Assembly: GCA_012517315.1 (NCBI GenBank)
Contig: JAAYVE010000055.1
Location: 62,001 to 126,000, forward strand
Length of the DNA: 64,000 nt
Direction of reading: 5' to 3'
DNA from: Deltaproteobacteria bacterium
Lineage (GTDB): Bacteria; Desulfobacterota; Syntrophobacteria; Syntrophobacterales; Syntrophobacteraceae
Under the pieces are notes generated by a model that saw nothing but the letters and a program-made list of their open reading frames with translations, was not told the DNA's origin and did not search any database. Both the position numbers and the translations under genes were made by a program. Shown here one piece after another: positions 12,096-15,188 of the stretch (its first letter is position 1; the number at the start of each line of letters is the position of its first letter).

Positions 12096-12428
12096 TCAAA
12101 CGGCCCTGAGACTGTCCTCCACCGTGGAGTGGATGGGAAGAAAGGAGACGAAGCCGGACATTTCGAAGATTTCTTTGATGTAGTCCCTCACAGAACAGAG
12201 AGCAAGGTGCCCGTCGCTGACTTTCAGTTCTTTGACAGCCTTAAGGAGGACGCGCAGACCTGCGCTGGAAATGTAGTCCAGTTCACCGAAATCCAGAACC
12301 AGTCGGTTTTCACCCTGGCGCACCGACCCCAGGAGCATCCTCTCGAAATCCTCCGAGTTGGTGGAATCCAACCGCCCTTTCACCCCCAGCACCAGGATGC
12401 CCTCCAGTCGCGTTTCTGTGACTTCCAT
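12096..12428 (-). CDS. STAS-domain anti-sigma factor antagonist-like protein
   Basis: 110-residue single STAS domain, as in SpoIIAA/RsbV-type antagonists that bind anti-sigma kinases or other switch partners. The conserved phosphorylatable serine is in DYISSAGLRVLL; the N-terminal strands read ILVLGVKGRLDSTNSEDFE. The ATG at 12428 follows AGGAG (11 bases) and fits the domain edge; the frame is open to 12494. No anti-sigma factor or phosphatase gene is adjacent. It is divergent from the large ABC exporter gene, with under 200 bases between. Confidence 0.88.
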   Translation of the reverse strand: MEVTETRLEGILVLGVKGRLDSTNSEDFERMLLGSVRQGENRLVLDFGELDYISSAGLRVLLKAVKELKVSDGHLALCSVRDYIKEIFEMSGFVSFLPIHSTVEDSLRAV

Positions 12429-12626
12429 GCTATTCTCTTCTCCTTCCGGCAGGAGTTCTTGCCCTGGAGCACCCCGGCCAAGGGGCGGTAACAACCCCTG
12501 TAAAGCCGGCGCCGCCGATTCCGGCGCGATCCCTCCAGGGCGGGCGAGTGGATCTCAACACATTGCGTGCACTTCCCGATAACGATACTGAAAGCTAAGG
12601 GGCTCGTCAACCGGTCAACCGGACCC

Positions 12627-15188
12627 ATGTCGGAGTCGACTCTTCAAACCTTTGCCGAGGAACCTGCGAGGTTCTCCATGATCACCAAGCGCCCTTTGAG
12701 TTACTGGGTCAGGACGAGCAGCATCCGTCTGCAGATTCTCCTTCTGGCGGTCATCGCGGTCACGGTGGCCACGCGGGTCCTGCCCCTGGAGATGCAAAAG
12801 AAAATCGTCAATCACGCCATCAACCTGGGGCAGGTGGATCTGCTTCTCACCTATTGCCTTTACTACCTTCTCGCCGTGGTGACCGCAAGCTGCCTCAAGT
12901 TCGTCATCAACTGGATTCAGACCGTACTGAGCCAGGAAGCCCTGGCCAGGATGCGCAAGGAACTCTACGCGCACATTCTCACCCTGCCTCTCAGTTTCTT
13001 TCGCAGGACCTCATCGGGGATGGTGGTCTCCTCCCTTGTGACCGAGGTCGCTACAGCCAGTGATTTCGTCGGCCAGGCTGTCGCCGTCCCGGTGACGAAT
13101 GGTCTCACCCTCCTCGCGTTCGCCGCATACATGTTCTACCTGAACCCCCTTCTGGCGACCCTGAGTCTGACCATCTACCCCCTGGTGCTCCTGGTGGTTC
13201 CGCGCCTTCAGCGAAAATCGAACGAGGCCAACAAGGAGCGGGTGGACAGCACCCGGGTTCTCAGCAGCAAGATCAGCGAGACGGTCTCCGGCATCCACGA
13301 GGTACACGGCAACGGCAGCTACGCCATTGAGAACAGACGTTACGGAACCTTTGTGGATGAACTCACCCGCATCCGCGTGACCTGGAACCTCTACAAGCAG
13401 GGTGTCAAAGTGGTCAACAGTTTCTTCCTGGGCCTGGGACCCTTCGTCTTGTTTCTCATTGGGGGATACCTGACCATCCAGGGACGCTTCGATTTGGGAG
13501 CCATGGTGGCTTTTCTTTCCGCCTACGAGAAGCTGTACGACCCATGGAAAGAATTGATGGACTTCTACCAGCTCTATCAGGACAGTTCCGTGAGTTATAA
13601 GAGACTTATGGAATACTTCGACGTGGAACCGGACCACCTTCTGGAACCAATAGACCGTAAACCCCTAACATTCCGGGGAGACATCCGTATCCGGGACCTT
13701 TCCTACAGCGTGGCCGGTGGCATCCAGCTTCTCAAGCAAATCGACCTCGAATTGAAGGCGGGTGAACAGCTGGCACTCATCGGGTTTTCTGGGAGCGGCA
13801 AGAGCACTCTGGCCCAGTGCATCGCCCAGCTTGTCCCTTACACGGGGGGCAGTGTCCAGATCGACGGCGCCGAAGTGAGGGATCTCACCAAGAAAGACAT
13901 GGCGCAGAACCTCGGGATTGTTGCCCAGTCCCCGTACATCTTCGACGGGACCATCCGGGAGAACCTCATTTACTCCTGCCGGGCAATCCTGGACGAGAGC
14001 GAAGGACACCTGGAGGAGAGGCTTCCCTCCCTGGATCGGATGATTGAGGTCATTCAGCAGGTGGGACTCTTCGGGGACATTCTTCGCTTCGGATTGAACA
14101 CCGTCCTGCCGCGTGAAACCCACAATAAACTCAGGGAGAGAATCGTCCGGATTCGCCATCACTTCCAGTCCGGGTTCGGCGAGCAACTGGCCGAGGACAT
14201 CGAGTTCTTCGACGAGCATCGATACCTCCAGCACTCCTCCGTGGCGACGAACCTCACCTTCGGAGAACCCCACCGACCGGAGTACGGTCCAGAGGTGTTG
14301 CACAGGAACCCAGCCTTCCTCCGTTTTCTCGATGACGTGCAGTTGGCCAAGCCCCTCATGAGCCTCGGAGGGGAGCTGCTTCACCAATCCATGGACATTC
14401 TACGGGATCTCCCCCCGGACGAGATCTTCTTTCAGCAGACTCCCATTCGCTCGGACGAGTTCGAGGAATGCAAGGCCGTCGCCTCTCGCCTCGAGAAAGT
14501 CCGGGTTCACGAACTGCCGGAAGAAGACAGGTCCTTTCTCCTGCAGCTTGCCCTACGCTTCGTGCCGGGAGTCCACCGTGTGGTCGCCATGCCCCCGTTT
14601 CTGAAAAACCTGATCCTTGAGGGTCGGCACCAATTCATTAAGGAGATTCGCGACAAGTCTCCCCATGCGCTCTCCTTCTATCGAATGAGCGAGTACATGG
14701 ACTCCCGGACTATTTTGGACAATATCCTTTTCGGAAAACCCCGGACAGACCATCTGAGAGCCCAGGAGCGCATCAGCCAGAGTCTCGTGCACTTGCTCAT
14801 TGAAGAGGACCTGCTGGAAACCATTGTCGAAATCGGTATGGATTTTCGGGTGGGAACCAAAGGAGATCGGCTCTCGGGTGGGCAGCGGCAGAAGTTGGCC
14901 ATCGCCCGGGTTTTCCTTAAGGCGCCGCCGGTGCTCATCATGGATGAAGCCACGTCGGCTTTGGACAATGCGTCCCAGAAACGGATCCAGACCCTGCTGG
15001 AAACGGGCTGGAAAGGCCGAAGCACGCTCATTTCCGTCATTCACAGGCTGGACACCATCCGGGGATATGACAGGATTGCGGTCATGAAGGCGGGTAAAAT
15101 CATGGAAATGGGATCCTATCAGGAGTTGATGGGACGGAAGGGGATATTGTACGAACTCATTCACGGAGCCAGGGAAAATGCACAGTGA
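12627..15188 (+). CDS. ABC exporter (permease + ATPase) with ~260-residue insertion in the ATPase domain
   Basis: 853-residue type I ABC exporter half-transporter in the inner membrane. Residues ~25-340 form the six-helix membrane domain. The ATPase domain has Walker A GFSGSGKST at 386, Q-loop VAQSP at ~432, signature LSGGQ at 749 and Walker B VLIMDEATSALD at 769. The Q-loop to signature distance is about 315 residues instead of ~55, so about 260 extra residues lie in the helical subdomain. The segment following the Q-loop (FDGTIRENLIYS, 439) recurs in altered form at 533 (SSVATNLTFGEP) and 690 (SRTILDNILFGKP). Start uncertain: ATG 12627 has no clear ribosome site; ATG 12678 and a start at 12567 are alternatives. 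The stop overlaps the next gene. Substrate unknown. Confidence 0.85.
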   Translation: MSESTLQTFAEEPARFSMITKRPLSYWVRTSSIRLQILLLAVIAVTVATRVLPLEMQKKIVNHAINLGQVDLLLTYCLYYLLAVVTASCLKFVINWIQTVLSQEALARMRKELYAHILTLPLSFFRRTSSGMVVSSLVTEVATASDFVGQAVAVPVTNGLTLLAFAAYMFYLNPLLATLSLTIYPLVLLVVPRLQRKSNEANKERVDSTRVLSSKISETVSGIHEVHGNGSYAIENRRYGTFVDELTRIRVTWNLYKQGVKVVNSFFLGLGPFVLFLIGGYLTIQGRFDLGAMVAFLSAYEKLYDPWKELMDFYQLYQDSSVSYKRLMEYFDVEPDHLLEPIDRKPLTFRGDIRIRDLSYSVAGGIQLLKQIDLELKAGEQLALIGFSGSGKSTLAQCIAQLVPYTGGSVQIDGAEVRDLTKKDMAQNLGIVAQSPYIFDGTIRENLIYSCRAILDESEGHLEERLPSLDRMIEVIQQVGLFGDILRFGLNTVLPRETHNKLRERIVRIRHHFQSGFGEQLAEDIEFFDEHRYLQHSSVATNLTFGEPHRPEYGPEVLHRNPAFLRFLDDVQLAKPLMSLGGELLHQSMDILRDLPPDEIFFQQTPIRSDEFEECKAVASRLEKVRVHELPEEDRSFLLQLALRFVPGVHRVVAMPPFLKNLILEGRHQFIKEIRDKSPHALSFYRMSEYMDSRTILDNILFGKPRTDHLRAQERISQSLVHLLIEEDLLETIVEIGMDFRVGTKGDRLSGGQRQKLAIARVFLKAPPVLIMDEATSALDNASQKRIQTLLETGWKGRSTLISVIHRLDTIRGYDRIAVMKAGKIMEMGSYQELMGRKGILYELIHGARENAQ

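Follow-up and report, generated by a model that had tools for sequence, protein, structure and literature searches.

The exporter gene and its surroundings

The window analysed here is a 64,000-nucleotide stretch from a genome of 4.43 Mb in 61 contigs, whose nearest named relatives are the Syntrophobacteraceae and other Desulfobacterota. It contains a gene for an 873-residue ABC exporter, a gene for a cyclic-nucleotide-binding-fold (CNBD) protein that overlaps the end of the exporter gene by 11 bp, and a STAS-domain gene (Table 1). Homologues of the exporter have N-termini that fall near residue 36-38 of the 873-residue frame, so its start is uncertain and is more probably ATG 12627 or ATG 12678 than GTG 12567.

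Table 1. Genes and exporter features of the locus; coordinates are those of the window and residues those of the 873-residue frame
Feature	Position	Strand	Basis or remark
STAS-domain gene, RsbV/anti-sigma-antagonist type, divergent	12096..12494	-	Pfam STAS E 6e-22
ABC exporter, 6-TM type IV TMD-NBD fusion, post-Q-loop segment triplicated	12567..15188	+	Pfam, AF2
Walker A, residues 406-414, GFSGSGKST	13782..13808	+	Lys412 invariant 88/88
Repeat 1: strand, true Q-loop (Gln454), α3, α4, α4b; residues 449-510	13911..14096	+	hhalign, AF2
Linker helix joining repeats 1 and 2, residues 520-537	14124..14177	+	hhalign, AF2 helix
Repeat 2: strand, Q-loop-like turn, α3, strand, α4, α4b; residues 545-612	14199..14402	+	hhalign
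All-helical extension of repeat 2, residues 613-697	14403..14657	+	Confident model, ABC likeness not detected
Repeat 3: strand, Q-loop-like turn, α3, α4, α4b; residues 702-758	14670..14840	+	hhalign
ABC signature LSGGQ, residues 769-773	14871..14885	+	SGGQ invariant, 78-sequence family alignment
Walker B and catalytic Glu794, residues 789-796	14931..14954	+	Glu794 invariant 88/88
CNBD-fold protein, 163 aa	15178..15669	+	Pfam cNMP_binding E 2.6e-17

Pfam recognises an ABC_membrane domain at residues 59-319 (E 2e-30) and an ABC_tran domain (E 1e-28) that is split by an insertion into residues 389-501 and a C-terminal piece. Judged by its sequence, the protein belongs to the homodimeric type of ABC exporter, and its ATPase looks normal and active. 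The Walker A Lys (K412), the Q-loop Gln (Q454), the Walker B Glu (E794) and the H-loop His (H826) are each invariant in 88 of 88 homologues, so the Desulfobacterota exporters with the triplicated segment should hydrolyse ATP. In being a TMD-NBD fusion with all catalytic motifs it resembles the known type IV ABC exporters (Sav1866, MsbA, TmrAB, TAP1, PglK). However, these have one post-Q-loop segment, while this protein has three and an 85-residue helical extension. The post-Q-loop segment is the ABC ATPase's contact with the membrane domain and its size is usually near constant. Ordinary ABC exporters have about 55 residues between the Q-loop and LSGGQ; here there are 315, and in the homologues about 300 or more. 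The first-pass annotation had this spacing exactly right, and the positions it gave (Q-loop near 434, LSGGQ at 749) are residues 454 and 769 renumbered from ATG 12627. The long spacing is a variant feature and membership in the ABC exporters stands.

Three copies of the post-Q-loop segment

Three stretches of the exporter share a T-I-x-x-N type motif: FDGTIRENLIYS at residues 459-470, SSVATNLTFGEP at 557-568 and SRTILDNILFGKP at 713-725. The resemblance was first noticed from the sequence alone, and it holds up well. We built profiles of the three segments from 88 distinct sequences and compared them with hhalign, using 150 column-shuffled controls for each pair. Repeats 2 and 3 match with a score of 53.3 (E 6.8e-9; shuffled maximum 18.2), repeats 1 and 3 with 36.7 (E 2.5e-6; shuffled maximum 20.1) and repeats 1 and 2 with 33.1 (E 2.7e-5; shuffled maximum 22.8). 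The likeness spans about 60 residues per copy and so extends beyond the motif. The Asn of the motif (466, 562 and 719) is invariant in all three copies across all 88 aligned distinct sequences, and the same cross-matches between repeats appear when the Desulfobacterota profiles are compared with the corresponding segments of alphaproteobacterial homologues.

The copies also resemble ordinary ABC ATPases. Scored against the genome's own ordinary exporters, repeats 1, 2 and 3 reach 47.4, 26.5 and 110.5, where the shuffled maxima are 16.7 to 19.0, and repeat 3, which runs into the true LSGGQ signature, matches canonical exporters at E 3.5e-21. Because repeat 2 matches these ordinary exporters, its likeness to ABC ATPases is direct and is not just a likeness to its neighbours in the protein.

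Public models and structures say little about the insertion. It is described by no Pfam or NCBIfam model. Searched as a profile against PDB sequences it returns weak matches only, the best being ABC exporters at E 0.6. The repeat 2 profile has the ABC flippase PglK as its top match among PDB sequences, in the same register, at an E of 0.15 that is not significant alone. When repeat 2 and its extension are modelled by themselves the prediction is confident (pLDDT 92), and in a limited search this model has no Foldseek match at E<=0.001 (best E 2.2) and a best VIA Z of 3.2. It could be argued from the missing PDB match and the poor E-value to PglK that the middle segment came by its resemblance through convergence and that the insertion is an unrelated helical domain. 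We consider this very improbable. The repeat 2 profile scores above every shuffle against both repeat 1 and repeat 3, it exceeds the shuffled maximum of 19.0 against the exporters of its own genome, and the invariant Asn falls in register across the three copies. The predicted structure adds that the distance from the start of the strand to the start of α3 is the same in every copy, 14 residues (414 to 428, 510 to 524 and 667 to 681 in model numbering).

That structure is an AlphaFold2 model of the full-length protein (mdb0bae23e7e6), made from the 78-sequence alignment, in which model numbering plus 35 gives window residues. Its mean pLDDT is 84.7, and across the insertion the values are about 77-94 per 10-residue block with one block at 61. 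The model aligns by VIA-align with Sav1866 (Z 32.3, 439 residues, 3.1 Å) and with MsbA (Z about 32), and the NBD of TAP1 can be fitted nearly whole, over 248 of its 251 residues at 1.9 Å. Because of this last fit, one complete canonical NBD is present in the model and the insertion is additional to it. Two extra partial ATPase folds had been envisaged between residues 430 and 760, counted from ATG 12627. There are none; no second Walker motif or signature is present.

The linker helix after copy 1 resembles the linker helix before copy 3 (20.3 against a shuffled maximum of 16.8). Copies of the signature helix in repeats 1 and 2, a first impression by eye, lack profile support, the comparisons of these two regions with their counterpart in repeat 3 scoring below the shuffled maxima. 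By these profiles the repeated unit is about 60 residues long (strand, Q-loop or turn, α3, α4, α4b) and is without a recognisable signature helix. Residues 613-697 show no similarity in hhalign to the canonical NBD segment of the same-genome exporters; the middle copy is elaborated, having gained about 85 residues of new helical sequence. Profiles and model together tell us that the post-Q-loop (helical-subdomain) segment was duplicated twice in tandem, which lengthens each NBD by about 260 residues. The first-pass annotation had proposed a helical subdomain duplicated in tandem, with diverging copies and a single Walker B and signature. The triplication and the single set of motifs are borne out by the profiles, the same-genome exporters and the model. 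The proposal has to be trimmed in two places, since the unit is only about 60 residues and the roughly 85 residues of the middle copy are unlike any part of an ABC ATPase.

The family and its gene neighbours

The distribution given here covers searches centred on the Desulfobacterota, a scan of 84,980 species genomes and plasmid records. The insertion is kept in about 90 distinct Desulfobacterota proteins. Its profile has matches in 36 of 60 near-relative genomes and in 20 of 297 genomes sampled across the phylum, and the 84,980-species scan returned 70 loci, nearly all of them in Desulfobacterota; pooled, these finds gave the 88 distinct full-length sequences. The window's genome also carries a paralogue with the insertion on contig 47 (847 aa, 49% identity overall and 38% in the insertion). 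An assembly or frameshift artefact can be rejected, since many genomes have the insertion and the paralogue that carries it lies on a different contig. Sharing by other genomes, which had been put forward as a check, is confirmed, and it extends to rhizobia. The family is a variant of the known type IV ABC exporters and is apparently undescribed; neither the architecture nor the gene cluster was found described earlier in the literature searched, whose scope excluded preprints and most subscription papers.

With tblastn, plasmids yielded another 252 records; almost all belong to Rhizobium, Sinorhizobium and related alphaproteobacteria, and the top ones have about 25-28% identity across the insertion. 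Five of these homologues were looked at closely: Sinorhizobium sp., S. meliloti pSymB, Rhizobium binae, Phyllobacterium and Methylobacterium (ABC genes at L120 6420-9134, L121 6636-9350, L122 2826-5621, L123 6381-9131 and L124 6420-9137). The homologue of Sinorhizobium meliloti 1021 lies at about 842 kb of pSymB. In all five the Walker A Lys, the Q-loop Gln, the signature, the Walker B acids and the H-loop His are replaced, and in all five the three segments and their Asn are retained. This suggests that the rhizobial homologues, the one on S. meliloti pSymB included, are pseudo-ATPase ABC proteins. The appendage is able to outlive ATP hydrolysis, since relatives without the ATPase motifs keep the insertion.

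The persistence of the insertion in homologues without ATPase residues could also mean that the extra segments are structural, bracing the NBD dimer, tying two exporters together or adding coupling-helix contacts, with no regulatory partner. The model gives this idea something to work with. The full-length prediction shows ordered short strands in repeats 2 and 3 that are absent when repeat 2 is modelled alone, which suggests packing between repeats. We nevertheless think a purely structural role unlikely, because it leaves a near-obligate CNBD neighbour and a set of switch genes unexplained.

In 86 of 88 distinct family loci the gene after the exporter is the CNBD gene, which usually overlaps the ABC stop codon. 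To the question whether it always adjoins the exporter the answer is nearly always; L038 and L070 are the only distinct family loci without a detectable downstream CNBD gene. Association of an ABC exporter with a CNBD is also seen in the NHLP/NHLM bacteriocin ABC type exporters, where a cyclic-nucleotide-binding domain is fused to the transporter. Here the CNBD is instead a separate overlapping gene, and it is the NBD rather than the N-terminus that is expanded. The Glu of the phosphate-binding cassette serves cyclic-nucleotide binding. Among 94 CNBD partners compared, this Glu is replaced by Gly in 67, the window's included, and the Arg is mostly kept; both canonical residues are kept in four alphaproteobacterial partners. 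Most members therefore do not have the CRP-type cassette (Glu and Arg) that binds cAMP or cGMP, and with the Glu missing from most of them the ligand may be something other than cAMP, or the CNBD may be purely structural.

The remaining neighbours were counted in 52 family loci flanked on each side by more than 2.5 kb, taking genes within about 6 kb; these loci are mutually related, so the counts are not independent. CNBD is found in 51 of the 52, STAS in 47, a gene for an RsbW-like (anti-sigma-kinase-like) HATPase_c_2 protein in 42 and one for a SpoIIE-type phosphatase in 19. Most often the genes run ABC, CNBD, HATPase, STAS. The switch residues are kept too, with the STAS motif Y-[IV]-x-S-A-G-L in 44 of 47 and the kinase N-box in 42 of 43. 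The family as a whole encodes together the RsbU/V/W-type gene set, which is a STAS protein with a phosphorylatable Ser, a HATPase_c_2 protein and a SpoIIE phosphatase. At the window's own locus STAS is the sole adjacent switch gene, without kinase or phosphatase. In one Halodesulfovibrio locus the gene that diverges from the exporter gene (L109:2290-4566) encodes a SpoIIE phosphatase carrying Cache and HAMP domains. From its domains this phosphatase is likely an outside-facing sensor and a candidate for the signal input of the switch.

It is fair to ask whether the switch genes have anything to do with the exporter. The appendage might mainly bind a ligand-sensing CNBD protein that opens and closes the exporter, with the STAS and kinase genes merely co-regulated or acting on transcription. 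The CNBD is the only partner retained nearly throughout the family, most of the alphaproteobacterial members included, and its gene overlaps the ABC gene, while the STAS and kinase genes vary in position among loci, lying downstream or divergently upstream. Against this, STAS genes occur beside the Desulfobacterota exporters at a rate that mere closeness would hardly produce: with just 7 STAS domains in the window's genome, of which one adjoins the exporter, about 0.02 STAS genes would be expected by chance in a stretch of this size. The genes conserved around family loci include none recognised as a sigma factor, which does not favour an action on transcription either. We regard the idea of CNBD as the main partner as possible but somewhat doubtful.

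The alphaproteobacterial loci limit the opposite idea. A CNBD gene adjoins the exporter gene in four of the five and glycosyltransferase genes are found in those same four; STAS and kinase genes are absent from the annotated neighbourhood. The locus of the same-genome paralogue likewise has a CNBD gene and no adjacent STAS or kinase. Since these members do without the switch genes nearby, a partner switch cannot be the appendage's only role.

A possible docking platform

The first-pass annotation had suggested a regulatory or partner-binding platform, and the genes around the exporter put that suggestion ahead of the others. We believe the chance is about even that a sensor and a partner switch gate the exporter by docking on such a platform. 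The extra copies and the new helical extension would make up an appendage placed, as we infer, on that region of the motor which contacts the coupling helices and swings on ATP binding. The CNBD-fold protein and a phosphorylation-controlled switch of STAS protein, anti-sigma-type kinase and SpoIIE phosphatase would dock on the appendage. Once docked, they would permit or prevent transport in response to a signal from outside. The idea comes from the linkage of the CNBD, STAS, kinase and phosphatase genes and from the precedent of MlaB and MlaF. MlaB, itself a STAS protein, binds MlaF on its helical subdomain and is required for proper assembly and function (PMC7367683). In both MlaFEDB and the present family a STAS protein is genetically tied to an ABC transporter, here known from gene linkage. 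The two differ in that MlaFEDB is an MCE lipid transporter built of separate subunits, with a helical subdomain of normal size, while the STAS protein here belongs to a kinase/phosphatase switch set.

The other obvious comparison is with RsbU/RsbV/RsbW (SpoIIE/SpoIIAA/SpoIIAB), which the STAS, HATPase_c_2 and SpoIIE neighbours resemble with their switch residues kept. Classical partner switches end in a sigma factor, whereas the conserved neighbour here is an exporter. A bolder reading, which we offer tentatively and think rather less probable than not, is that an exporter motor was rebuilt by triplication so that a sigma-factor-type partner switch and a CNBD sensor gate transport directly. 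The pump would then replace the sigma factor as the output, and the rhizobial form, its ATPase lost, would perhaps be a non-pumping receptor or regulator. If the switch does act on the exporter, partner switching would extend from transcription to membrane transport. A conserved triple-copy family with one ATPase site and near-obligate sensor and switch genes is a natural experiment on the post-translational regulation of ABC proteins.

As for what is exported, the glycosyltransferase neighbours of the rhizobial homologues and the likeness of repeat 2 to PglK, not significant alone, hint weakly at a glycolipid or polysaccharide.

Some family loci carry features of their own. In roughly 18-26 loci the module is followed downstream by two convergent genes, one encoding a PqqD-like protein and the other a protein of 293 aa that matches no Pfam family (for example L064:8762-10028 and L101:8915-9796). 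One family member (L071) lies on a 3.4-kb contig labelled Candidatus Aminicenantes, where mis-binning or transfer is possible.
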